Assembly (NCBI RefSeq): GCF_000189635.1
Contig: NW_002476477.1
Span: 62,001-126,000 of the forward strand
Direction of reading: 5' to 3'
DNA: 64,000 nucleotides
DNA from: Tetrahymena thermophila SB210
Lineage: Eukaryota; Ciliophora; Oligohymenophorea; Hymenostomatida; Tetrahymenidae
The notes beneath the pieces were generated by a model, which did no database searches, was not told the DNA's origin, and saw only the letters and a list, made by a program, of their open reading frames with translations. The position numbers and the translations under genes are program-made. Below, piece after piece: positions 3,232-59,686 of the stretch (positions within the stretch are counted from its first letter, which is position 1; each line of letters begins with the position of its first letter).

Positions 3232-5044
3232 TCAACATTTTAGTTCATTTTGTTACAAATCTTATTAGTTGTTATTTAAATTATTAGATGTTTATTCTTG
3301 ATTTTTATCATTTTTAGGAGAAATTTCATTTAAGGTAGCTATTTAATTTGTTGTAATTTGAGGAATTGTTTACAATTCTGTTGAAGTAAAAATATGATTT
3401 TTAGTTTAATTATCCTTTTGAGATTGCTTTTCTAGCTGACCACTCTTTATTCTTATTAAGATAGGCAAAAGGATTACAATAAAGAAGCTTACAACATATC
3501 CCGCAAAGGACATAATTACTCCCAAGTTGAGTCTGGTTAAAATAGCAATTAAAGCGCAACCACAAAATACCACATTAGAAAGGAGGAAAGAAAATCTTGT
3601 TGGTTACTTTCCTTTGCTCAAGAAAGTACTAAAAAAGTTACTTCTTGAACCAAATACAATAATAGGATAGACGCCAATAATATAGATACAAAGACCAAAT
3701 CTTACGATTATGTTAAAGACATCAGTATCTGAAAAGTATTCAAGGATTGTATCACCTGGATTTCCATTTCTATTTAATAATTAAAATAAATTTAGACATA
3801 AAATAATTATTTAAAAATAGAAAATTAAATTTATTCATTCTTTAATTTATATTTTTATCTCTTTTTTGGAGTTGATCCAATATCCAAATATATTAATTAT
3901 TTATTTATTGGTGGGGGATTAAAGATTAAATTTAAGGTAAAATATGTGCTTACATAGGGGATTTTCCAGAAATAGCTAGAACACCGAAGAGGGATATAAG
4001 TATGTAAGTAACAAATGTGATCACATAGCACACAAATGTATCTCTTTCATTTTTTGTTTAGTCTTTATTGTCTCTCAGAATAGGAATAATCAAGCAATGA
4101 ATTTAGAAACTAAGAATGAAAATGCCTATTAGGTTGTATATTTTAGGAGTAAATAAAGGAGTATCTTACAAATCGATTCCGTTAGTAATGTTGGATCCAA
4201 ATTTGACAATAGCAAATAAGACAATAACACCTACTGAAAGAAGGCCATATTAAGTAATCTTCATGATGAATGAGAGATCTCTCTTAGCAAGAACAAGGAA
4301 AAAGAAGCTAATTGTTGCAATGCCACACCATTCATATGAGAATTTACTAAAGGTGGCTTCATCTCTCTAGGCTACATCTACATTAAAAGCACCTTCAAGG
4401 AAATATTTTACAAGAGGGAAAAAGAATGAATTGAATAGCAAAAAATATATTATGGAAACCAAGAATAATAATATAGAATTAGCAACAGTGTAAACTCCCT
4501 TCCAAGTTTTACCGAGAAGTCTTTCTATAGTATCGTAAAGATCTCTTTCATGTGGCTGGCAATATTTTACACACCAGATGCAGGTTTTATATAAAAAGGC
4601 ACCTACAACAAACATACAAATAAACGAAGTAATAATTCCATTTTCTTTAAAAATGGCAGGAAATACAACAATAGAAGAACCCATCATAGTATTAGCAGCA
4701 GCTATCCAACTTCTCCATGAAGGGTTAGTACCTTTTATAGCTTTTGGTATCTAGGTGCCATTATCTGAAGGGCAAACTTAAGAGCTGTTACCTTCGATGT
4801 TTTGGTTCGATCTTGATTCTTAATCATTTTAAAAAGATACAGGATTGTATTGGTTAGAATTAACTTATTCTGGAGTTTATTTAGAGTTATTTTAAGTTAT
4901 GGTTAGAACCTAATTTGTATTGATTAGGGGGTCAGAATTACTGTTTTTAAGCTGAATATCCATGCAAATAGGGTGGACCTGATTGATTTTATCACCCTGC
5001 ATTTCAATGTCTTAATTACTGTTCTAGTTTTTAATTGGAGCCAT
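3232..5044 (-). CDS. Amino acid transporter, AAAP family (paralogue 1)
   Basis: Two exons, 3954-5044 and 3232-3769, joined over a 184-nt intron (GTAAGC...AAATAG, phase 2); 542 residues ending at TGA. An N-terminal Q/N-rich cytosolic tail of about 105 residues leads into PSWRSWIAAANTMMGSSIVV, the first helix with the unwound GS-type motif of amino acid/auxin permeases. About ten further hydrophobic helices follow, then a polar Q/N-rich C-tail. IHCLIIPILRDNKD and NPGDTILEYF are shared with the second copy at 7568-9020. Likely a proton- or sodium-coupled neutral or cationic amino acid carrier of plasma or endosomal membrane; the substrate cannot be read from sequence. The start is the first ATG of the exon. 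Confidence 0.88.
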
Positions 5045-7184
5045 TTTAGTATTCAGACAAATGTGTAATTTTTATTATATAAATTGTTTTTATTTAATTA
5101 ATTAATTATTGATTTCAGAGTTCTGCTAAAAGTCTAATTTAATAGTACCTAATTTACATAAGTGTAGATAGTTTTAATTTTAAGTAGAATATAAATCTTT
5201 TCTCCTCCAAATGTGTTAAATATATAAATAAAAATGTTTTGATTTAAAATAATATTCAAGAAATAGCATGAATTCTATCCATATTGATTAAAATAATAGT
5301 ATTTTATGGCCATTTTTATTGTTTGGTTCTATTGATTTTTAGATCCCAGATTGTTCGATTTTATATAGTTAAGTTAATTTTTTTTGTTTGATGTCTCCTA
5401 AAGTTAAGATGTTTTTAATGTGTATGCATAGGTGTACCCTACGAATTTTTATTTTAGATCTTATTTATGGAAATTGCGAAATATTTTTGAAATTTAGTTT
5501 GAAATGTATATTATAATGCATCATTAAAAGTGAAGCGTAGCATATATTAACCCAGATAAAAATTTATTAATACTTACTTTTGTCAATTTGATGTCAGTCT
5601 GATACAGTAATAATTATTTTCAATATATTTTTGCAAGAATTTGGGATTAACTCAGTCAAGATTTGCATTAAACAGATTAACAGAAAAGATACACATTACT
5701 AAGCACCTTATAAATAAACAAAATCAAAATCTCAAATTTACTTAACTTTGACCACCGATTTTAACTCCTAGGATAAACACTTTCAGTAACAAATATTAAA
5801 AAACAGGGAATTCAATTTAAAATTTTATAGATTTCCTTGAGGAAAGTATGCTCTGCTTTAAAATAGTTATTGAAATCTATCATTATTCTCTTATGGAAAA
5901 AATCTAGAATTTTAATCAAAAAAAAATGTATTTGTTAAATTTATATTGATTTTGATAATATGTACTTTAATTATATATTGCAAACAGCAATGCAATCATA
6001 AGTCATGGTTAGATTTATACTTTTAATCAAAATATATCAATCTTGTCTAATTAATCTATGCTTGCTTAATTTAATTAATTAGCTATCAATTGATTTTGTT
6101 TGTGATAGGCTTGTAAAAGAATTAGATCACTTTGATATGTAAAGTTAATTAAATTCTTATAAAGATTATATGCAAATTTATTACGTATGCTCTCAAACTA
6201 CTTGATATTACTCAATAAAAGCATGCAACATCTTTAATTTACTCATAATAACATCTCTTATTAATACTAATTTTTAAAAATGATCTTTCAATGAGCAAAT
6301 ATCAAACTTTTCTACCATTTTTCCATAAAATTTGTCCCTTTTTTAAAACAAAATTAATGCACATAGTATCCTCTACTCATATAATATCTAAAAAATACGC
6401 ATAAAAATACATTTTCTATATATTCTAAAGAAATTCTAATAACTTATTCTTACTTAATTATAATATGGTTAGTTAATTAAATGACAATAGGATATTTCCA
6501 TAATAAAATAAAGTAAAAAGAATAAAAAATCAAAAAGTTTACTTATAATGAATTAAATGTAGAAAATATCTACTATTATATTTTAAATCAATATAATATC
6601 TCTATAAGAATACTATACTTTTAGTCTATATTTTCTTGATCAAACAATAGATAATCTTTATAGAGTCATAATTCAAAAAAAATATAATTTTTCTTTATTT
6701 GATTACATATTTATCTAATTATTCATTTAATGATTAATTTTAATGTAAACCAATACAAGCAAATTTTTTTTTTAGTATGTAAATTTAAGGATGTAAGTCT
6801 TGCAATCACTCAAAAAAATCAGATTTTATTAAAATTAAAAAGTCCATCATTAATTTAAATTAAAAAATTTGTCTATTAAAATTTGATAAATTAAGAATTT
6901 TCTGTTTGATTCTAACCCTACTTAACTAACAATCAGATACTAAATAACTAGCTTCTAACCCACTTAAGTTAATCTTTAGAGTCCTTAACTTTTTCTTTAA
7001 AGTACCTCTCCTATTGATGTATCTTTTGTTTTAAAATTTATCTCTTTTTAAATTTACCCTTACAAAATATCTATTTTATTTTTCTACTTAAAATTTTTTA
7101 GTTGTTTATTTTATAAAGAATATAATTTTTTTAAAATAAATATTAACATTGATTTCATCTTTCTTACTCAATAAAATAAAAAAG
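5045..7184. other. Intergenic, no protein gene seen
   Basis: About 2.1 kb of AT-rich sequence upstream of transporter paralogue 1. The left part should contain its promoter. No coding frame with Tetrahymena-like codon usage was found on either strand. Confidence 0.55.
7178..7183 (-). terminator. RNA polymerase III T-run terminator of tRNA-Asn
   Basis: Six consecutive T on the minus strand, one base after the discriminator base of the tRNA gene, the usual pol III stop signal. Confidence 0.8.
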
Positions 7185-7258
7185 CGCTCGATGTAGGGAT
7201 CGAACCTACGACCTTGCGGTTAACAGCCGCATGCTCTAACCAGCTGAGCTAATCGAGC
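7185..7258 (-). tRNA. tRNA-Asn (anticodon GUU)
   Basis: All cloverleaf parts are present. The acceptor stem GCTCGAT pairs with ATCGAGC, and the D-stem is GCTC/GAGC. The anticodon stem TGCGG/CCGCA encloses loop CTGTTAA with anticodon GTT. The T-arm is GTAGG-TTCGATC-CCTAC, and the discriminator base is G. No intron. The internal pol III promoter boxes are intact (A box TAGCTCAGCTGG, B box GGTTCGATCCC). It lies between two minus-strand transporter paralogues. Confidence 0.97.
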
Positions 7259-16226: not shown

Positions 16227-19200
16227 TCAATCAGTTTTTAACTCTTTTCTTAATTCAGGTTCTTCAATATTATCTGAGCTTCTACTTCTGATTTTGTCGC
16301 TCTTTGCTTATGTTTACTGTTTTTATGCTTTCAAGAACTATTTCAAGCACTGTCTTACAGCAGCTTCTTAGAAAGAGTTTTCTAATCCCTATTAGAATTT
16401 TCAAATATTTTATAAAAATTTTCAAAAAATAAAACAAATAACTTACATTATAAAAAAGATTTGGTGAGAAGAATTTATCAAGTTCAATAACACCAACATA
16501 CTTAAACAGATTACTTTGATTTTTAGATTTATTAATTATTTTTTCAATAAAATAAGAACCAAAGTGATTAGATTCTGCTCTTCCAATCAACCTCTCATCT
16601 TGATACAATAAAATTCCTTGATGTTACTCAGCTGAAGTGTTTTTGCGTGTAGTTGTACCTTCTACATAATAAAATTTAAAATAAAAAAATATTAAAATAA
16701 TAAAATATTAAGCTTACCCTTAGTTTCAGTATTAGATTAGTCTTATTCTTAAGTGGTTTAAGCTGCTTGTGGTTAAGTTGATGCTGATTGATCAAGGTTA
16801 TAATTAGTTTATTCATAAATGGTTACTTTTCCAGAATCTCTAACCATAGGGAAATTATCGATATTTAATTCTTTTAAGAATCTCATTCCTTTTTATTTAG
16901 TTAGAATATTCTGATATGATAAAAATTCATATCTTTGTCCATTAATACAAAAGTGCATATTTTCTGGTGTTTTTACATATAAATGTTGAAGATAACTCTT
17001 TAAACTGTAATCAATCAATTTTTCAACATGTTCTTTTTTTTCTTTGAAGAAATTTTTCTTTTTAGCAACTATGTCAGGTTTATTGGGGCTATATTAAAAT
17101 TCATACCCTTCTCTACCAGTAAGAGGAATGCGTTTTAAATCAAAGATATAAATATAATTTCCTTTATCGTGCTTAAAGAGCTATTCTTCGTTCATTAAAT
17201 GAGCAATATTGTTCAAAATAATTCTTTTATTTTAATCACCACTCTCAGTCAAATAAACCTTCTTTTTCATGTCAATACTAAACAAAAATATAATGCATTC
17301 TTACAAATTTGGATTTATCTTTCCACTAGAACTAATTAAACCTAATTTTTATATCAAATAATTTTTAATCTAAAAAATATTAGAAAAATAGATGGTATTT
17401 CTTATCATCATAATTAATATTTACCTACGTTTAAGATATTATAAGTCTTATTTTTTGAAATGAAAAGGACATTTTGACCTAATCTTAAGCCAGCTAATTT
17501 GATGTTATTTCCATATTAAGCTTTTGATTACAATTGAATTTCATCTTAAATTAATTCCTTGTGAGCTTTATTGTATTAGATAACTTTGTAACTATCAAAT
17601 TTATACATAATATCTACAAAATCATTGTGAGGGAAACCTTCACTGTCATCATAAATTTATAAGAATAAGTTATGATTATCAATAACATTCTTATCAATAG
17701 GTTAATTCAAGAGGAATCCATTACACTTGCTTTGATTATTGTTATTCAATCCTTAATTAGCATCCTAAAGATTTTAAGAGCTTCCAGTTTTATTTTATTA
17801 ATTAGCTGCTTAAGCTTAAGTATTAATATAAGTTTCCCTCTTCTTTTAGCACATCAAATTTATTTGGATAGTACTAGCAAATCTATAAATTAATTTATTA
17901 TTTAATTATTAGTTGTCCATATATAAATAAAAAAATAATATTTTATTATTTAAACTTTTTTCTAGATTAATTTAAAAAAACAAAAACTTCTTTTAATTAA
18001 TCTATGATAAACTAAATTTATAATTTGATTTTTAATTTAATAAAATTTATTTTAATTAATAAATTTAATAATTTGGTTATTGAAATTTATTTGAATAGCA
18101 TTTTATTTGAATAAAAAGCTAAATGTTATATTTTTTAAATAAATAAAATTGAAGGAAATTTACTGGGATTTAGCGTTGTGGACTAGTAAACCAAAAGCAG
18201 AGAATGGCCAACCAATAAGATTTGCTATCGAATTTAAGAAAGACATAGAAATATATGGCTATCTAATAGTTAAAATAGAGTCTTCTTGTAATTGTTAGTG
18301 TTAGTGCTGATGACCTTATGATGCCATTTCTTTTTTAAGTGCTTTGTTTATTTCTTATTGTCTCAGCTTTTCTTCACTTTCCAAAACAGAATCATCCTTG
18401 GAATCAACATCAAACTAATCTAATTTTGCTCCACTTCCAGATCTTTTTTCATCATTTTCTTCTTTAATACTGGCATCTTAATCTTCCTCCTATTCCTCAT
18501 CTATATCATTTTCATCTTTCATATTAAATAATAATTATTAAACAATCTTTTATTTAATTGAAAATTACCTTTTTTAACAATTTTTCCATCTGTTTCTGTA
18601 TCCATTTCATTTTCATTCTTTTCAATTATTTGGCTTTCCTAATTTTCTTTTACATCATCGTAAATCTTTTCATTACTAGCTTCAACTTTCTTTTCAGATT
18701 CAGCTTATTAATTCAAATTTTTATCTACTTATTCATCACCTTATTAATTTGAATTTGCTTAATCATCATTGGTGTTTTCTTGTTTATCTTCATCAATCAT
18801 TTATTATTCTGTTCCACTATTTTACTTACTTTATTTTGAATTTTAATCATTTTCCTTTAACTTAGGCTTATCTACTTCTGTCTCATTTCCTCCATCTTCG
18901 CCTCTATTTTCATTTTCAAAAACTTCTGGATGCTTCAATTAAATATCTTCTCTATCAACATCTATTCTAATGTTATCTTCATCATCAATTTAATTATTTT
19001 TCAAAGCTTGCTCTAACTACTTTTGTTTTTCTATTTGCTAATCTGTTAAATTATAAACCACTTCACATGTATTGCAAGTTTTTTTATTTTCCTTTTAAAT
19101 TAATGTTAAATTAAAACCTTTGGACTAAATAAATTTTATTTACTTATGAATTACTGTGGTTTTTGTTTTCCTCAACATAATTAAGCTAAAGTACTAAAGT

Positions 19201-20818
19201 TTAATCTGAATGGAAATTATTATCTTCCTTCAATAAACCTCCAAATATAATGATTTAATCCTATTTATAAATTAGACTGAGCTAAATGTTTTTTATACTT
19301 TCTGAATTTACTTAGTAAACTGAGCTTGAAAGAGAAATAATAGGTTTAAGTGGGCATCTATGCTTTTTGTGAGGAACTTCGATCCAAATATTATCTTCAA
19401 TATCATAAGCCCAAATATCATCTAATTTAGTTTCTTATCTTTCGCCTGCTATAATAAATATATATCTGTCTTTAAAAACACACATTGAGTGTGAAGCTCT
19501 AACACAAGGCTTTTTGTCTTCATTTTAAGAAATTACTGTTAAAATCTCTACAGTTTCTGACTTACCATCACCAAGCATATTAAACTAATAATTTTAAATA
19601 AAAAATTAATTTAAAAAAAAATACATTGAATCTATCTTTATAAAATTTAGCAAGATATCGATTTAAAATCTAATTATAAACTTTAACAATATTTCATGTT
19701 AAATTAAGTTAGGATAAATAATCGAATTAAATAATAATTTTCTATTTAAACTTAACATATGAATTTAAATTACTTTCAATTTGTAAAAGTCGTTGTAGAA
19801 AACATCGTCTTTGCCAACAGATTTACCTTGTCCACCAAAAACATAAACAAATCCATTAACATTAGTCATAGAAAAACTATCACGAGCTTCAATTTAAAAT
19901 CCGTGTTTATTGGTAACTTCTCTCCAGGCATTAGTTTAGGTATCGAATATATACATGTCGTCATAGACAACAAGTTCTTCTGCTTCTTTACCATTTGTGC
20001 CGCCAAAAACAATCATGTATCTATTAAAAAAATAAAGCAACTAAGAAAAAGCTATTTATAAATTTATTTCGATATTTTCAATATCTATTTTGCTATTAGA
20101 CAAGATCTACTTGTTATTTATTATTAATAAAATAATAAATCTGAAAAGCAGCTTTTGCGAAAATTAAAATCACTTAAAGAATAAATAAAAAATATCTTTT
20201 TATCTCATAAATATTTTACCTGTCTTCGAGAGAGCAAGCTTGATGGCTTTCTCTCACTAATGGCAATGTGCCAGTTGCATCAATTTTTTTCCATTCATGC
20301 TTTTTTGTATCGAAAACAGCAATATCATTCTTGACCCTTTCATCTGCAGTTTTACCACCAAATAAATAAATTTTTCCTTAAATAAGACAAAGAGAGTGGG
20401 AATCTCTATGCTCTGGTGCAGAAGAAGCATTACACATAACTTTTTCCCATTCGTAAGTTTCGCAATCGAGACGATATATTTATTCTCTAGCTACTTATGG
20501 ATAGATATCATCAATATATCCCCCAATTAAATACATGTATTGTCCTACTACTACTGTTTAATGACCCCAACGCTCTAGAGGATAATTAGGGGCAGTTTTT
20601 GATTTAGATTCTAGATGCTTTTCAGATTATACTTCTCCTTCTTCTAATTCATCATTTTATAATTTTTATTTCTTTTTTGTCTTATTTAACCATTTATTAT
20701 TGGTAAAGGGGTTCTTAAGATCTAATAATTAAGTATCTCTTTCGCTACGACTTAATTCTTCCCTATATTAAATAATATTGTAATTTTTTCTCTATTAATA
20801 AGCAGATTAAATTCTCAT
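16227..20818 (-). CDS. Kelch-repeat protein fused to a MORC-like GHKL ATPase module
   Basis: Predicted nine exons: 20220-20818, 19774-20020, 19155-19584, 18569-19042, 18164-18515, 17429-17882, 16718-17369, 16447-16661 and 16227-16388. All eight introns agree in phase; 1194 residues. The ATG has an in-frame TGA 33 nt upstream. Residues about 80-425 hold kelch blades, with repeated GG pairs (MYLIGGY, IYLFGGK, YMIVFGGT, VYVFGGQ, IIIFGGL) and downstream W. An acidic Glu/Gln linker (about 425-650) follows. From about 670 the order of motifs is that of MORC ATPases: WPFSAFGLLVHNA (motif N region), IYDDSEGF (motif I), YGNNIKLAGLRLG (motif II), DYSLKSYLQHLYVK, then GILLYQDERLIG and YVGVIEL. The N-box Glu is replaced by Leu692 while Asn697 stays, and DxGxG reads DDSEG, so ATP hydrolysis may be lost. 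Likely a nuclear chromatin factor. The exon 3/4 border has two possible solutions. Confidence 0.78.
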
Positions 20819-21962
20819 TTTTAAACTCTTACTTTGAGTCAGGGCTCAGCATCTATCTTATTTTGTCACTTAATTATTGTTATTACTTGGGTTTTCTAAC
20901 TTCAAAAATTATTTTTTTGATCTTTATTTATTTATGAGTATGCAAAATCTTTTAATTTAATTAATTATAACAATTAGGCAAAGTTTTAAATAATGTCAAA
21001 ACCAGCAGCCCTCCAAATTATTTACAAAATCTACAATTAATTCATTTTTATTTTGTGTATAATATATATATAAATAAATAAGTAAATAATCGTATACAGT
21101 AATTAATATATTTAAAGACATTAAAATCCTTTTTTTTACATCTAAAAACTTACATAAATTTTAAAAACACTATGACCATTATTTTATTTTAAATATTTTT
21201 TAATTAAATACTCTTAATACAATCATTATTGAAATTATTTTTTCTTTTCTTATTTTTAAAAGTTTCTTTATTTTTTTTTTTGTTAAAGAAAACTTTTAAA
21301 AGAAAAGATAGATTACATTATTATAACAATAAATTTTTTATTTTTTAACTATTTTGCTAAATGAATTAAAAAAATTTAATTTTAAAGAATATCAAGAATA
21401 ATTTTTTGTTTTATGATGAGTATATTAGGTTTCAGATATTAATTTAAAAATATTTTTTGAATGAATATAAAGATATTTTATTTTATTTGTTTTAGTAATA
21501 GAAAACCTTTATCTTTTTATAAAATTATCAATCTTTTTTTACAATATTTTATATGAATGTTTACTTTTAAATTTACCTTCTGTGAGCATCTAACTTTAAA
21601 AAATATGACTGTTAATAATTTCTCGATTTTTCTTTTAAATCAAAACCCAAAACAATAAGTTATATTTGTTATAGCTTTTACATATTTTAATCATAAAAAT
21701 CGATAAAAACATTTTTTTCTTCTATTAAACTGTAATTTAAATTTATTTTTTATATCGATATTTATTGAATATATTTATTTTAGTAAAGAGTGTTTAATAA
21801 AAAATTGATAGATACTAAATAAAGATATAGGAGGTAAAGAATAATCTGGATTGTATTAAATATAGATATTTGTTGGATATACATAATTAATATTAATTAA
21901 GATCAGAATTAAAATTTCATTCACTTCTACACTTTTATAAATACAAAAATATCTCAAATAGC
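20819..21962. other. Divergent intergenic region
   Basis: About 1.1 kb between two outward-facing genes (kelch-MORC on minus, dehydrogenase on plus), so it should contain both promoters. Very AT-rich. A short TATATATATA run lies near 21063. No ORF. Confidence 0.55.
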
Positions 21963-22955
21963 ATGAATTTGTTAAAGAAAATTCCTACTTTTGTTGGTTT
22001 AGGCACTATTGGCTACTATTCTTATGAATGGGGCTCTAGATATTTTTATCATAGCATAAATGAAAACGAATTAGATTTTATTAAGAGATACGGAAACTGT
22101 TATGGTCTAGTAAGCGGAGGCTCATAAGGATTAGGAAAGGAATATGCAAATGAATTAGCCAAAAGAGGTATCAATCTTGTATTAGTTGCCAGAGGTTAAG
22201 AATCTCTCGAAAAAGCAAAATAAGAGATCAAAGAAAAGCATCCTTAAATTGATGTTAAAACCATTTCTTTTGATTTTTCCACATCAAATCCTTCTGATTA
22301 CTAAAAACTTGCATCTCAATTGAAAGATTTAGATATTGGAATATTGGTTAATAATGTTGGTGTCTTTTAGCATGGCCCTTTACATGAAGCTAATTCTAAA
22401 GATTTAAAAAATTTATTAGTAGTTAACACTTACCCTGTAACATATTTAACATAAACTTTCCTTCCATCTTTATAAAAAAGGTAAATTATTTTATAAATTT
22501 ATATCTAAATAAATTAAAAACTTAAGGTTTACACTTTAAATTCATATATTTTTTATATTTTTATGATTAGAAATAAAAAGTCATTAGTAATTAATGTTGC
22601 AAGTGAAGCAGGAGAATTTGTGCATAAAGAATTCCCTGTTTACAGTGCTAGTAAAAGTTATGACATATAGTTATCTAAGTGCCTTCAATAGTTTTACAAA
22701 GGTAGCAACATTGATGTTTCTCTTTTCCTTCCTGGACCAACTTACACTCCACTTGTTTAGAAAATAGATACTGATTTTAATAAAACACCTTATGGTAAAG
22801 CATATTGTGCAGATCCTTCCCAAGCTGCAAAGGACAGTTTTAGAAAAATAGGATATTAAAGTTCTATCTTCGGTGATTAGAAGCATGAATATTTTCATTT
22901 TATGCATAGATATTTTAGATCTCTCTCTGAATACATTTATCCCTAAACAAAGTGA
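21963..22955 (+). CDS. Short-chain dehydrogenase, 17beta-HSD12 / very-long-chain 3-oxoacyl-CoA reductase type
   Basis: Two exons, 21963-22480 and 22571-22955 (phase-2 intron GTAAAT...ATTAG); 300 residues ending at TGA. An N-terminal hydrophobic stretch (about 8-22) is a probable membrane anchor. The Rossmann fold shows the cofactor loop SGGSQGLG (51-58), NNVG (130-133), catalytic Ser184 in NVASEAG, and the active-site pair Tyr197 and Lys201 in YSASKSY. The VARG after beta-2 fits NADP(H) preference. Arrangement and length (about 310) match the ER membrane family of HSD17B12/KAR, which reduces 3-ketoacyl-CoA during fatty acid elongation or acts on steroids. The substrate is inferred from family only. 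The canonical NNAG is NNVG here, as often in this subfamily. Confidence 0.9.
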
Positions 22956-50310: not shown

Positions 50311-52114
50311 TATTTTTAATTACATATTTTTTGATTTAATATTGAATTATCTAAATTGATCTAATCTCATAAAATATCTTAAATTAAATAGACAAAATAA
50401 ATCAATAGTCAGTCGAATCAATTTTTTTCCACCCATTTGATATAAGATACTTCTAATAATTATTATCAATACTGTAATTTTTTAGTATCACTCAAATTTA
50501 CATAAACCATTTATGTGCTTAGCAATTATATGGTTGAAAAAATAAAAGCTTTAATTGACGTTAATCCTAGGTTGGTATTATTATACAGGATTTATGTTAA
50601 ATATAAATAAAATGTTTTTTTTTCAGATATTTTTTTTAACCTAATTAAGAATAATTTCTCTAAAATTATTTATTAATTCATAAATTTACTTTTCTTGCAA
50701 TTCAAACAATATAATTATATAAATAAAAATATGGAAAAATGTAAATGCATTCACTCAGAAATTAATTTTGAATGAAATGTAAGATGAAAATTTGTCTTTT
50801 TTTATATATATTTTGTTATATATTTTTCTTATTTTGAAATAATCCTTTCTCAAATTTAATCAAATAAATTGCAATTATTTTCCTTAAGTTAAATGCATCA
50901 TTCAATTTTTATTATGTATTGTCCATTCAAATGTTTTCTCATTAAATATATTCATATAAGATTGTATCTATCTCTTTTTATCCACACAATATTAAAATTT
51001 TATGATAACAATTCTACTTTTATAAATCAAATAAATTTCAATTAGATTAAGCTTGAAAAGCATACGTTTACAACAAAAAAATTATAAAAGTAAATAAGAA
51101 AAGAATTAATTAATATATCTATATTTGAATAGTTAATAATAGATTTATATTATTCTAACTAAGAAATATTGAAATATAATTGGTTGACAGATAGATAGAT
51201 AAAGTATATATTTCAAAATACTTTTATTGACTAAATTTTAATAGGTATTTACCCTTTTATTATTAATCAAATATTTAAAATAATTAAGACTTTTTAGTTA
51301 GAATAAAATTATATATTATAAAATTACAGATAGATACTGCTTTAATTTCCGTGATAATTCATCTATCTCTTTTTAAAATTAAATTATAAAATTAATTTTA
51401 TTCTGGTTATTGCTCTTTTTTTATTTGAGCTATCATTGCATTGTATTTTATGCTTTTAAATATTTTTTTAATAAATCAAATTATTTTATTAATTCATTTT
51501 TATAATTATCTTTATCATTAATACAACCATTTTTATAGTAGAAAAAATTCTAAATTGAATAACAAAGAAGCTACAAATTAATTACGATTTTTAATGGTAT
51601 TTAAAGAAATCTGGTTAAATTCCTAATATAAGATAAGTTTTATTATAGAAATATTATTAATTTTTATATTTTAATTACTGAATTTATATAAAGAGATGTT
51701 CTTTTTAAAGGGTTCTAAAATATACTAAAAATTAAATCCATAGAGATATAACTTTTAATTTTATTAAGGTTAAATAAACATTCACTTAAGCTTCTTATTG
51801 TTTTGTTTAATATCAACCATCATATTTTTTACATTCAATTTTAAATTAAGTAAAAATTTCCCATTAAAAAAAAACTATTTACTACATAGCTACTTACTTA
51901 AAATTGTTATATTTTATTCAATAGTATCTTATATATTTCCTTATGTTGTTAATACTTTTAATTTTTTTTACATTCATATTTTAATAAATTTTACTTAACA
52001 AATTAACCTAATGATCATTATCCAATTCACTCAGTATAAAAAAATAAATACTTTAATTTAATAAATTAATTAAATTATCTGAAATTTAAATTTGTAAAAA
52101 ATAAAAAGAGTTAA
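50311..52114. other. Divergent intergenic region; right part is duplicated
   Basis: About 1.8 kb between the membrane protein start and LRR gene B. From about 51536 rightward it is the 5' flank of the tandem duplication and reappears at 56059. A short GATA run lies near 51190. No gene seen. Confidence 0.55.
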
Positions 52115-55100
52115 ATGTAATAAAATGTTTCTGTTAGCAATTTAGAAGATGTAAATTTTGTTTTTAAAATATAAATTTCAAGAATATACTTAATTCATTT
52201 CAAAAAGGTAGCTAAATTTGATTTGAAAACAGTCAGCCATCTTAATATATAATTTAAGTATTAAAGTTTATTTTTTTAACAAACTTTCAAAATCAGTTTA
52301 TTATTTTAATTTTTGAATGAAAATATTAATTTCTTTAAAATAATTTCAAAGGGAATATTATATTTTAGATAAAGGGATAATTCTACTAAATTCTTATTTA
52401 TAACAGTGCTAATTAATTCAAACTCTGATATTGAATTTTGAGTAAATTTTAATTAGCTATTTTTAAAATTAAAATTTAAAAATAAGAAATAAAGCAATTA
52501 ATGGCAATTAGATTGTTTTACTGTTTAAAAATCTCCCAGAATTTAAAAATTTGACAACCTTTTAGTTAAACTTAAAGTAATTTTATATTTATTTATTTAT
52601 TTAAAATGAATAAAATTATTTGTAAAATAAATAAATCCTTGTTAATAAAATTAGTAATTGCTACATTGATTTATCATATCCTTAAGGAGCAAAAGCACTA
52701 AGTGATTTTCTTGAAAAGTGTTAGAATCTAACAAAACTCTAACTCTTGCATAAGTAAAAACTTATTAATATTTTTTATAATAGTTTACTTTGATTTAATA
52801 ATTTCTAGTGGAAATTAATTTGATAACTAAGGTTTAGCATTAATAATAGGCTCTCTTGTTAAATTAAAAACTATCCAAGATTTATAGATAGACTTAGGGT
52901 ATAACTTTTTATATTTTAAAAAATATTTAAATATAAAAATTAATTAAAGTTTCTTAAAAATTAATATATTTATTATTCATTAAATTTCAGTTATTCTTTT
53001 ATCTTAAAATTTAAAATTATTAATAAATAAATTAATAGAGATGTATAACTTGATAACGAAACCGCTTCTTAATTAAGTATTGCTTTAAGCTTTTTTCAGA
53101 ATTTGGTAAACTTAAAGCTAGATTTAATGTAAAAATAAAATATCTCATAACTCAAAAACAAACTATTTATCTTAAAATTCACATTTTTTAAATTACTCAT
53201 AAGCTTTCTTATTTTTTGTTTGAATTATAAAAATAATTAATAAATTTTGTTGTAAATAAGAAATTTTAGTTAATGTGAAAAAGTAATATTTTTTATATTT
53301 TTAAAAAGACATTGTTCAATTTCTGATGATCAAGTATGCTCTATCAGCGAAGGAATTAGTAATTGTAAAAATCTTTAAAAAATAGACTTTAACTTAGGGT
53401 AAATTTGACAAAACAAATTTTACTTAATATAAATTGAAATATTTATTATTTTTATTAATTTTAGCTGAATAATTTAAATTGAAATAAACATTTTTGTTTT
53501 TTTAAATTTTAATTATTTCATTTTAAAATATTTTTTATTCTTAGATAAAACTCATTGAGCAAAAAAGGGGTATCTGGAATATAAAAATGGATGATTAATT
53601 GCTCTGAGCTTACATAATTGCATTTACATTTGTGGTAAATAAATAATATTGAATAAATTATAATATCAAGTAAAAAATTAACTGTTTTTTACAAAAGGGG
53701 GTGTTAATTAGGTGATGAAGAGGCTAATTTGATAGGTGAAGGTTTAAAAAAATGTAAAAACCTAGTTGAATTATTACTTAGTTTGTCGTAATATTTTAAT
53801 TTACTTCTATTGGTATTTTAGTATACTAAATATAGATTTTTAATGATCACTATTTTTATTTTTTATAATTAAATTTAAAGCAACTTGCTAAATCAATTAT
53901 TCATATTAAAATAATAAAAAAGAAAAAATAAAATCTAAGACTAAGGTGTCTCTAGCATTGGAATAGGATTGAGCAACTGTACAAAAATTGAAAGTTTGAT
54001 TTTTTATATATGGTAAATCTTTTGCTTGTTGCTATTTTATAAATTTAATTTAATTTGATAAATTTTTACTTATCAGAATAAAATATTTAATGTCGTTAAA
54101 TCAATATTTATTGAAATTTAAGGGGAAATTAAATTGGGAATAAAGGCTCATAAACATTAGGGATGGGTTTGAGTAATTTTTAAAATCTGATAAACCTGGA
54201 GTGCTCGTTTTAGTAAATTAATTTATTTTTTTCAAAGCAATAATTTTTTTTTAATTTTTATGAATCAAAGCAATTTCTTTTTCAAATTTATGAAAATAAA
54301 AATATTTTAAAGTCATTTCATATTAGATTATTTTTAATTTTTTATATTTTTAAAAGATAAAATTAGTTTAATCAAGAAGGAGCTCTTAGCATTTTGTCAG
54401 GGATAAAAAATTACACTCAAATTTAAAAATTACAGCTCTATATCGGGTGAATATATAAAAAATAGCTTTTCATTTTATTAACATATTGATTATTATTTAA
54501 TAGGTCAAGCCATTTTGGTTTACAAGGGGCATCTGAAATAGGAAGATGGTTGTCTAAATGTTAAAATCTATCAACTATTGATTTAAGTTTTGTGTATCTT
54601 TATTTATTGATATTTATTAATATAATAAAATCCTTAGCTAAATTTATATATCTATATTTATTTTATATTAAATAGTGAATGTAATATTGGTGATGAAGGA
54701 GTTTCTAGCATAGCATGTGGATTGAGTTAATGTCCAAATATTTCAATTATAGAGCTTTATTTAGGGTAATTCGGCAAAGCTATTTCTGTTTTAATTTTTA
54801 ATTAATTTTATTGATTTATATTAATAATTTTGGTAAATTCATCAATTTATTTCAATATTTAATATAAGGGAAAATAATATTAGCCAAGTCGGAGCTATTG
54901 AATTCAGTAAATATATTTAGAAATTAGAAAACGTAAAAGATTTTCTTTTAAGTTTAAGGTAAAATATTATAAAAATATTGTTTTTAATGTAAACTTTGAA
55001 TTTTTAAAAAGGTGGCTCATATTCTATATAAATTTATTAAAATAACATAAATAAAGAAAGAATCTTAAAACTTAAATTTCTTCGTAAAGCATAATTATTT

Positions 55101-56058
55101 TTTAAGTTAAGAAAATAGCTAATAAAGTTTATTTTTCAAAAAAATTTTTAAATAAAAAACACTAATATGAATTCAAAGATAAATATTTCTGAAATTTTAT
55201 CAGACTTTTTGATAGTTTAATTTACAAAATTATTGTATTTATTTCTTTAATTTAATAAAAAATTTAGAGACAATATTATTAGTGAAGAAGGATATTTAAG
55301 CATAGGATAATCTTTAAGTAAGCTGACAAATATGCACACTTTAAGATTAAATTTATCGTAAGTAAAATTTAAAATAAAAAATTTTTAATGTTTAAGTAAA
55401 TATTTAACAGCGATAATGACTATTTTCTGAAATCTAAACATTTGCTAAATTGCTCAAATATTAGAGTTTTGGAGGTGGATGTGAGGTAATACTTTTAAAT
55501 CAATTTTTTACTATTTTCTCATATTTTATTTTATAATTTAATATAGTTATTGCTCAACTAATAGTTATAAATTATATCATTATAGAAAAGCAAATAAACT
55601 GAAAAGATTAGTAAAGTTAAGTATTAAATTATGATTAATGATATAAAATTGATAATAGAATTTATTTTAAATTTATGATTTTTATGTTCAAATTTTTATT
55701 ATTTTTATTTAAATCATAAACTATAATTAAAGATGTAAAATAAAAATTATTTAAATCTGTTAAAAATTATTCATTTTTAATATTTATCTCTATACCCTCA
55801 ATAAATATAATATCTTATTATTTACTGTTTTATTATTTTTTGTAATATCAATATCAGATTCACAAAATGTAAACTAAGTTCCTAATAAATGTTATTTTTA
55901 GTTAAATATTTATTTATTTTTTCTAATAAAATTAAGTTGGTTTAATTCCTAAAAGAGGAATTTGTAAATTTTCTTTCATAACAAAATTTTAATACTGAAT
56001 ATTCTCATTAATTAATTCCACCCTTTTAATTTTTTACTAAATTTTTCACTCTTGTTAA
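51536..56058 (+). repeat. Tandem segmental duplication, left unit (about 4.5 kb)
   Basis: Begins near AAATTCTAAATT(G) and ends near TTTTTCACTCTTGTT. Carries LRR gene B with its 5' and 3' flanks. Near-identical stretches recur in the right unit, including ATGTTTCTGTTAGCAATTTA and GTCAGCCATCTTAATATATA. The unit is about 0.9 kb longer than the right one because of a block around 52300-53240. Confidence 0.85.
52115..55634 (+). CDS. Leucine-rich-repeat (RNI-like) protein, gene B
   Basis: Nineteen exons, 535 residues ending at TGA. Leader 52115-52150 (QNVSVSNLED) and a 50-nt exon 52208-52257 (VAKFDLKTVSHLNIQF) come first. Repeat exons start at 52352, 52487, 52655 (99 nt), 52809, 53039, 53309, 53545, 53698, 53923, 54123, 54357, 54504, 54676, 54869 and 55268. 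All but 52655 are exactly 90 nt. Then come a 75-nt exon (55411-55485) and the last exon 55547-55634, ending in a basic Lys-rich segment (KLKRLVKLSIKL). Every intron after the second exon is in phase 2. Typical unit: CSISDDQVCSISEGISNC then KNLQKIDFNL. It shares leader, repeat logic and terminal exons with genes A and C. Function unknown; protein-protein binding is expected. Confidence 0.85.
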
Positions 56059-56626
56059 AAGTAAAAAAAATTCTAAATTAAACCAAAAAGAAGCTAAAAA
56101 TTATGATCTTTTATGGTATTTAAAGAAATATGGTTAAATTCTTAATAGAAGATAGCTTTTATTATAAAAGTATTTTTATTACTTAGTTAAAGTAAAAATG
56201 TATCCTTAAATATTTTCCTAAATCTTACAAAATTTAATTTTACTTTTAATTTTTTAAAGTTAATAAAACAAACATTCAATTAAGCTTCTTATCCTTTTGT
56301 TTAATATCAACTGTCATATTTTTACTTTAAATTTTCTATAAAATAAAAATTTCCAAGCACACTATAAAGAAATCTATTTACAACATAGCTACTTACTTAA
56401 AATTGTTAAATTTTATATATTAACACTATCTAATATATTTTCTTGCATTACTAATACTTTTAATTTTTTTTACATTTATATTTTACTAAATTTTACTTAA
56501 TAAATTAACCCAAGGATCATTATCCAATGTTTATAGTTAAAAAAATAATTACTTTAATTTAATAAATACATAATTAATTAATTAATTAAATAAATAATCT
56601 AAAATTCAAATTTGTAAAAAATAAAA
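55635..56626. other. Spacer between LRR genes B and C
   Basis: About 1 kb containing the 3' flank of unit 1 and, from about 56059, the 5' flank of unit 2. No gene seen. The sequence matches the flanks at 51536-52114 and 59274-59686. Confidence 0.65.
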
Positions 56627-59600
56627 ATGCTGGAATAAAATGTTTCTGTTAGCAATTTAGAAGATGTAAATTTTGTTTTTAAAATATAAATTTCAAGAAT
56701 ATTATATTTATCCATATCAAAAAGTTAGCTAAATTTGATTTGAAAACTGTCAGCCATCTTAATATATAATTAAAGTATTAAAATTTATTTTTTTAACAAA
56801 CTTTTTTCAAAATAAATAAATATATGTTAAAAATAATAAATTTTTTATTTACTTGATAATAAATTTTGCAGTAAATATGAAATGTTAATGTGAAAAAGTA
56901 ATATTTTTTTATTTCTTAAAAGAAATTGTTCAATTTCTGATGATCAGATATGCTCTATCAGCGAAGGAATTAGCAACTGTAAAAATCTTTAAAAAATAGA
57001 CTTTAACTTAGGGTAAATTTGACAAAATAAATTTTACTTAAAAAAATTGAAATATTTAAGATTTTTATGCTTAATATTTTAAATTGAAATAAATAATAAA
57101 CATTTTTGTTTTTTAAATTTTAATTATTTCACTTTAAATTATTTTTTTATTCTTAGATAAAACTCATTGAGCAAAAAAGGGGTATCTGGCATATAAAAAT
57201 GGATGATTAATTGCTCAGAGCTTATATAATTACATTTAAATTTATGGTAAATAAATAAAATTATAATATCAACTAAAAAATTAACTGTTTTTTACAAAAG
57301 GAGCTGTTAATTAGGTGATGAAGAGGCTAATTTGATAGGTGAAGGTTTAAAAAAATGTAAAAACCTAGTTGAATTATAACTTAGTTTGGCGTAACATTTT
57401 AATTTGTTTTTATAGATGTTTTTTGATACTAAATATAGATTTATAATGGTGACTATTTTGATTTTTAAAAATTAAGTTTAAAGCAAATTGATAAATACAA
57501 TTAATTATTCTTATAAAAAAATAATAATAAAGAAAAAATAAAATCTAAGACTTAGGTGCCTCTAGAATTGGAATAGGATTGAGCAACTGTACAAAAATTG
57601 AAAGTTTGAAGTTGTTTATATGGTAAATCTATTGCTTATTGCTATTTTTATAATTTTAATTTAATTTGATAAATTTTTACTTATCAGAACAAAATATTTA
57701 AAGTCGTTAAATCAATATTTATTGAAATTTAAGGGGAAATTAAATTGGAAATAAAGGCTCATAAGCATTAGGGATGGGTTTGAGTAATTTTTAAAATCTG
57801 ATAAACTTGGAGTGCTCGTTTTAGTAAATTAATTTATTTTTTTCAAAGCAAAAATTTTTTAAAATTTTTTATAATCAAAACAATTTCTTTTTCAAATTTA
57901 TGAAAATAGTTTTAATAAAGATATTTACATTAATCTCAATTCGATTATTTTTAATTTTTTATATTTTTAAAAGACAAAATTTTTTTAATCAAGAAGGAGC
58001 TCTTAGCATTTTGTCAGGGATAAAAAATTACACTCAAATTTAAAAATTGCAGTTCTATTTACCGTGAATATATAAAAAAATAGCTTTTAATTTTATTAAT
58101 GTATTGATTATTATTTAATAGGTCAAGCCAGTTAGGTTTAGAGGGAGCATCTGAAATAGGAAGGTGGATGTCTGAATGCTAAAACCTATCAACTATAAGT
58201 TTAAGTTTAGAGTATATTTATTTATTATGTTTATTAATATAATATAATCATTAGCTAAATTTACCTGTATTTATTTTATATTAAATAGTGATTGTAATAT
58301 TGGCGATGAAGGAGTTTCTAGCATTGCATGTGGATTAAGTTAATGTCCAAATATTTCAATTTTAAAGCTTTATTTAGGGTAATTAGGCAAAGCAATTTAA
58401 GCTTTAATTTTTAACTAATTTTATTGAAAAAGATTTTTATTGATTTATTTTAATAATTTTGGTTAATTCCTCAATTTCAATATTAAAATAAAAGGTAAAA
58501 TAATATTAGCCAAGTCGGAGCTATTGAATTCAGCAAACAAATTTAGAAATTACAAAATACAAAAGATTTTCTTTTAAGTTTAGGGTAAAATACTACAAAA
58601 ATATTGTTATAAACTTTGAATTTTTATAAAGGTGGCTCATATTCAATACGAATTTATGAAAATAACATAAATAATCTTAAACTTAAATTTCTTCATAAAG
58701 CATAAATATACTTATTAAATTTAAATATTTTTTAAGTTAATAAAATAGCAAATAAAGTTTATTTATTTTTTAAAAAAATTTTAAAATAAAAAATACTAAT
58801 ATGAATTCAAAGATAAATATTCTGAAATTTTATCAGACTTTTTTGATAGTTTAATTTACAAAATTATTGTATTTATTTCTTTAATTTAATAAAAAATTTA
58901 GAGACAATATTATTAGTGAAGAAGGATATTTAAGCATAGGATAATCTTTAAGTAAGCTGACAAATATGCACACTTTAAGATTAGATTTATCGTAAGAAAA
59001 ATTAAAAATAAAAATGTTTAATATTTAAGTAAATATATAAAAGTGATAGTGAATATTTTCTGAAATCTAAGCATTTGTTAAATTGCTCAAATATTAGAAT
59101 TTTGGAGGTGGATGTTAGGTAATACTTTTAAATCAATTTTTTACTATTTTATCATTTTTTATTTTATAATTTAATATAGTTCTTGCTCAAGTAATAGTGA
59201 AAAATCATATAATTACAGAAAAGCAAATAAACTGAAAAGATTAGTAAAGTTAAATATTAAATATGATTATTGATATATTGATAATCAAATTTATTTTAAA
59301 TTTATGAATTTTATGTTCAAATTTTTATTATTTTTATTTAAATCATAAACTATAATTAAAGATGTAAAATAAAAATTATTTAAATCTGTTAAAAATTATT
59401 CATTTTTAATATTCATATCTTTACCCTCAATAAAAATAATCTATAATTATTTACTGTTATATTATTTTTTTGAAATATCAATATCAGATTCATAAAATGT
59501 AAACTAAGTTCCTCATAAATGTTATTTTTAGTTAAATATTTATTTATAATAATAAAATAAAGTTGGTTTAATTCCTAAAAGAGGAATTTGTAAATCCTCT

Positions 59601-59686
59601 TTGATAATAAAATCTGAATACTGTATATTCTCATTAATTAAATCCAACCTATTAATTTTTTGCTAAATTTTTCACTCTGGTTAAGG
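56059..59686 (+). repeat. Tandem segmental duplication, right unit (about 3.6 kb)
   Basis: Starts near GTAAAAAAAATTCTAAATT, directly after the end of unit 1, and ends near TTTTTCACTCTGGTT, after which the two units no longer match. Carries LRR gene C. Substitutions and small indels lie mostly in introns and flanks. Confidence 0.85.
56627..59273 (+). CDS. Leucine-rich-repeat (RNI-like) protein, gene C (shortened copy of B)
   Basis: Fourteen exons, 385 residues ending at TGA. Leader 56627-56665 and the 50-nt exon 56725-56774 match gene B. Then come ten 90-nt repeat exons starting at 56923, 57157, 57301, 57533, 57734, 57974, 58122, 58289, 58495 and 58902. A 75-nt exon (59044-59118) and the last exon 59180-59273 follow. 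The units corresponding to gene B exons at 52352-53128 (five repeats) are absent. All remaining exons are open and correctly phased, so the gene looks intact rather than dead. The last exon is six nt longer than in B (stop context changed by indels). Function unknown. Confidence 0.83.

Follow-up and report, generated by a model that had tools for sequence, protein, structure and literature searches.

Gene organization at the locus

The window, meaning the whole stretch of 64,000 nucleotides that was analysed, has a G+C content of 19-25%. Its first part carries, all on the minus strand, a papain-family cysteine protease frame with an I29 propeptide (629-1651, E 7.3e-55), a frame of the amino acid transporter family (Aa_trans, 3755-5593, E 9.6e-11) and a gene for tRNA-Asn (GTT) at 7184-7258. 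A short-chain dehydrogenase frame is found on the plus strand at 21609-22952 (adh_short, E 4.7e-34); the match falls into two stretches, perhaps with an intron within. Further along there is a tandem duplication of about 2.8 kb (53290-56058 and 56904-59684, spacing about 3.6 kb), the aligned pieces of which are 85-97% identical, and alongside it shorter copies connect 51580-52287 with 56099-56804.

The gene described here lies at 16227..20818 on the minus strand and is predicted to encode a kelch domain followed by a MORC module. Its parts are:

16227..20818, minus strand: whole gene; nine exons, eight GT...AG introns, 1206 codons plus TGA under NCBI table 6 (gene model, translation, frame test)
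20220..20818, minus strand: exon 1, aa 1-199; N-terminus, kelch blades 1-2 and start of blade 3 (gene model, Pfam; blade limits by eye)
19774..20020, minus strand: exon 2, aa 200-282; kelch blades 3-4 (gene model, Pfam; blade limits by eye)
19144..19584, minus strand: exon 3, aa 283-429; kelch blades 5-6 (gene model, Pfam; blade 6 by eye)
18569..19091, minus strand: exon 4, aa 430-603; acidic low-complexity linker (gene model)
18516..18568, minus strand: intron of 53 nt, phase 1, between the kelch and MORC halves (sequence)
18164..18515, minus strand: exon 5, aa 604-720; end of the acidic linker, start of the MORC GHKL domain, N-box WPFSAFGLLVHN at aa 706-717 (Leu at the Glu position)
17883..18163, minus strand: intron of 281 nt (gene model)
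17425..17882, minus strand: exon 6, aa 721-873; Q/N-rich insert, motif II DDSEGF at aa 799-804, motif III AQYGNNIK, LRLG at aa 853-856
16718..17341, minus strand: exon 7, aa 874-1081; remainder of NVGLIS, S5/transducer-like region, DYSLKSYL at aa 984-991
16447..16661, minus strand: exon 8, aa 1082-1153; motifs GILLYQDERLIG and VGVIEL
16227..16388, minus strand: exon 9, aa 1154-1206; C-terminal tail, no CW zinc finger by Pfam

The frame opens with an ATG at 20818 and closes with a TGA that ends at 16227, and it uses the ciliate code throughout, with TAA (65 times) and TAG (13 times) read as glutamine. TGA occurs only once in the 1207 codons of the spliced frame, at its end, while the other two sense frames contain 23 and 78; a first-order Markov resample gives an expectation of 35 (range 22-51, n=300). 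The coding part has 28.6% G+C and the eight introns 9-18%. Two splice sites were revised or rejected during modelling. An intron at 17428-17370 was replaced by one at 17424-17342, which preserves the frame and gives NVGLIS, a choice that was guided by the MORC motif, and a last-intron acceptor 7 nt later was rejected by eye because the frame then meets a TGA about 13 codons on.

Join between the kelch and MORC halves

Without splicing, the kelch frame (ORF 18519..19229) ends at a TGA at 18521-18519 that overlaps the ATG of the MORC frame at 18522-18520. The 53-nt intron at 18568-18516 (GTAATT...AAAG) has GT...AG ends, and its phase fits the join of both frames. An alternative TAG acceptor, located by eye and ending at 18501, would give a 68-nt intron and also keep the frame, with five residues fewer. 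Acidic linker is present on either side of the 53-nt intron. The AAAG acceptor differs from the TAG that ends six of the eight modelled introns, a feature favouring two neighbouring genes, one kelch and one MORC, that have been mistaken for one. Such an arrangement is very improbable: the overlap of the kelch stop with the MORC start codon would leave zero intergenic DNA, the acidic linker runs across both sides of the intron, the TAG acceptor 15 nt downstream is likewise frame-preserving, and both domains are described within one apicomplexan protein (PMC11483127, PMC12891473). The two halves thus very probably belong to a single predicted spliced gene, as the sequence-only reading had proposed from the phase-1 intron and the overlapping stop and start. 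The ATG, TGA and introns of that reading agree with the present model, except that its 18516-18569 is one base too long for the intron at 18568-18516.

The kelch half

The N-terminal part is identified from its sequence as a kelch propeller with six motifs, one of them weak. It matches PF24681 at E 1e-62 and contains five Kelch_4 stretches; the sixth, weaker motif was recognized by eye and ends in IIFGG, which starts at aa 394. Within it, in exon 3, a 30-nt GTAAAT...TTTAG stretch (19311-19282, minus strand) is in frame and could either be spliced out as a very short intron or form a loop; it is kept as coding in the model. Among the best 60 of the 75 PDB matches of the kelch half, KLHDC3 comes first (E 2.4e-29), KLHDC2 matches at E 2.6e-22, and there is no MORC chain. 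These matches to the KLHDC3 and KLHDC2 propellers are confined to the kelch half. Both of these proteins are degron receptors.

Assignment of the C-terminal half to the MORC family

When the MORC half was compared with PDB sequences (phmmer, E up to 10), three distinct sequences were matched, two of MORC3 (2.2e-5 and 4.2e-5) and one of MORC4 (0.084). The best of these, MORC3 (PDB 5ix1, 6o1e), matches residues 160-330 of the 524-aa query at E 2.2e-5, a stretch that starts in the GHKL lid and takes in the S5 region. The segments WPFSA and GILLY..RLI are collinear with MORC3, each being individually insignificant. By homology, the half is assigned to the MORC family because the lid-to-S5 match is joined by collinear motifs on either side, a GHKL domain being followed by an S5 region. 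The N-terminal GHKL half alone reaches MORC3 only at E 0.87, which is not significant, and the C-terminal 106 residues match no MORC in PDB.

The Pfam matches are weaker. Over the full length of the protein, no HATPase_c_3 match appears up to E 1, and the Morc6_S5 match (E 0.063) lies below the cut-off. On the MORC half, HATPase_c_3 scores 18.4 bits against a cut-off of 25, and only after the Q/N-rich insert is deleted does it just reach the cut-off (25.0 bits, E 2e-5), the sole case in which a MORC-related Pfam model does so. The pairing of kelch and MORC-like parts that had been read from the letters is borne out by PF24681 and by the phmmer match to MORC3. The earlier remark on motif order is also upheld: five loosened MORC motif patterns give eight matches in the six frames of the window, five of them within the gene and in MORC order and three elsewhere, the patterns having been written after the gene was known, so that they speak to order and not to independent significance. 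A structure prediction of exon 7 by AlphaFold without an alignment was unusable (mean pLDDT 33.3).

Pfam finds no zf-CW in the protein at E up to 1. A CW zinc finger and a C-terminal coiled coil are not universal in the MORC family. A candidate region for the transducer lysine (Lys427 of MORC2), by a tentative alignment, is YNGLENSF, which contains no lysine.

The predicted nucleotide-binding site

In MORC2, roles are described for Glu35 (general base), Asn39 (Mg), Asp68 (adenine), Gly70/72 (G1), Gly98/101/103 (G2) and Lys105 (alpha-phosphate) (PMC5811534). Alignment to MORC3 places a Leu at the general-base position of the ciliate protein (WPFSAFGLLVHN vs WPFSAVAELIDN); the N-box stretch alone scores 0.7 bits, and its alignment depends on its position and on the WPFSA that both proteins share. 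The same alignment pairs WPFSAFGLLVHNA with WPFSAVAELIDNA, and in it the ciliate protein retains both the Asn of the N-box and the Lys of motif III. The motif II Asp of DDSEGF is also kept, as aligned by eye. The G1 motif has Ser in place of its first Gly and keeps the second (one of two, by eye), and the G2 box reads AxxGxN, with one of three glycines kept according to the MORC3 alignment. MORC3 has the N-box Glu and a GxxGxG, where the ciliate protein has Leu and AxxGxN. A Q/N-rich insert lies within the GHKL domain.

ATPase activity of the module is doubtful, judging from these residues, because the N-box lacks its general base and G2 has lost two of its three glycines. The term "GHKL ATPase" used in the sequence-only reading is not supported in that wording, and the Leu and the replaced lid glycines had escaped that reading. 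An active enzyme that cycles as animal MORC does, with another residue taking over from the missing glutamate, would accord with what is kept: Asn in the N-box, Asp in motif II, Lys in motif III and a single glycine each in G1 and G2. It is nonetheless quite improbable, given the Leu at the general-base position, the Ser at the first G1 position, the two changed G2 glycines, and the retention of Glu in MutL- and Hsp90-like frames of the same genome. In that genome the N-box Glu is kept in four of the five other HATPase_c_3 matches (two MutL-like, two Hsp90-like) and is absent from the fifth, which is histidine-kinase-like (by eye).

Related genes in the genome

Same-genome searches covered a 101-Mb assembly of 445 contigs; its size and the low G+C content of the window would suit a Tetrahymena-like macronucleus. 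The MORC half matches five places, all of them exons of the same gene. HATPase_c_3 also matches five places, assigned by eye as MutL-like (L001, L002), Hsp90-like (L003, L004) and histidine-kinase-like (L005). A second divergent MORC could be present, because this search missed the kelch-MORC gene itself and another such gene could escape likewise. Morc6_S5 was not found in the genome by a search that recovered none of 14 controls, and zf-CW was not found in its six frames by one that recovered a single control of 14, below the cut-off. Relatives were sought by pattern in viral_contigs (six matches) and in genome_contigs (46 matches), and none was confirmed. Two further searches have no direct bearing on the kelch-MORC gene: AP2 (PF00847) was not found in the genome at E 0.01, with one of 14 controls recovered, and HDAC domains occur at 14 places.

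Predicted function

The protein appears to be built of a kelch propeller, followed by about 250 residues of acidic linker and, at the C-terminus, by a MORC module that comprises a GHKL domain and an S5/transducer-like region. In a presumably nuclear role, the propeller would dock the protein onto a chromatin partner, and the MORC module may dimerise around DNA and act there as a tether or a co-repressor scaffold. The module would probably bind nucleotide without efficient hydrolysis and so form a static or long-lived clamp, since it has Leu instead of the Glu and changed glycines in the lid but retains the Asn, Asp and Lys. The balance tips slightly towards such a kelch-docked tether.

Findings on other MORC proteins offer precedents. 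Plasmodium MORC has been proposed as part of a scaffold that connects transcription factors to epigenetic regulators and is linked to HDAC (PMC6693557). MORC1 and MORC2 are said to differ in their need for hydrolysis: ATP binding alone suffices for DNA compaction by MORC1, while MORC2 needs hydrolysis, and N39A, a mutant of it that is unable to bind, shows no compaction (PMC12216690). The MORC2 variant S87L combines lower ATPase with constitutive dimers and higher silencing (PMC5811534, Table 2). Together, the scaffold proposal, the ATP findings on MORC1 and MORC2, and S87L suggest a kelch-docked, long-lived clamp.

Loss of the general base could alternatively mean loss of function, by analogy with MORC2, which is reported to need hydrolysis and of which the N39A mutant fails to compact. 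The G1 and G2 changes could also abolish nucleotide binding. The main rival to the nucleotide-bound clamp is a pseudo-ATPase that binds no nucleotide, its MORC part serving as a structural scaffold or as a heterodimer partner. Several lost lid positions and the Q/N-rich insert inside the GHKL domain fit this reading, which leaves the kept Asn, Asp and Lys contacts without explanation; moreover, a second MORC as partner was not detected in the genome, by searches that are weak for divergent, intron-split genes. We regard it as somewhat unlikely, and a bound but barely hydrolysed nucleotide is preferred.

Relation to apicomplexan MORC proteins

It is already published that kelch and MORC occur together in Apicomplexa, and the remark on kelch repeats in apicomplexan MORC that accompanied the sequence-only reading agrees with these descriptions (PMC11483127, PMC11620747, PMC7820235, PMC12221972, PMC12891473, PMC6693557). 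As described, apicomplexan MORC proteins (PfMORC PF3D7_1468100, TgMORC) combine a GHKL/MORC domain with kelch motifs in a single chain, as does the product of the ciliate gene, for which the same pairing is deduced on the basis of one predicted spliced frame. They differ in the CW zinc finger, which is described for apicomplexan MORC (PMC11483127, PMC11620747) and is not detected by Pfam in the ciliate protein. This comparison is with published descriptions of the apicomplexan proteins. The kelch-bearing structure of Plasmodium MORC has been termed unique relative to its orthologues (PMC12221972), and the architecture has been read as a hint of parasite-specific roles (PMC11483127). Iyer et al. 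2008 (PMC2292703) list MORC in apicomplexans, with kelch and ciliate unmentioned. For a ciliate MORC, no paper was found by title in the open-licence literature, and an earlier report may exist elsewhere.

Common descent of the ciliate protein with apicomplexan MORC is plausible, as is an alveolate-wide architecture, the basis for the latter being one ciliate gene and the published apicomplexan descriptions. Kelch propellers are common domains. The fusion might have arisen independently in ciliates and apicomplexans, as the commonness of such propellers would allow, the apicomplexan side being known here from published descriptions; an independent origin is compatible with any of these readings of the gene. 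It seems unlikely, since the identical domain pair occurs in two alveolate lineages and a single origin is simpler.

With a single origin, it is conceivable, if tentative, that kelch-MORC is older than the split between ciliates and apicomplexans and not an invention of parasites, and that the ciliate branch converted it into a hydrolysis-dead, ATP-locked DNA tether. If true, nature would here have uncoupled MORC clamping from ATP turnover. The apparent loss of catalytic residues poses a testable question, namely whether MORC proteins function by ATP hydrolysis or by ATP-bound clamping alone. A ciliate kelch-MORC would shift the origin of the architecture closer to the alveolate ancestor and would supply a non-parasitic system.
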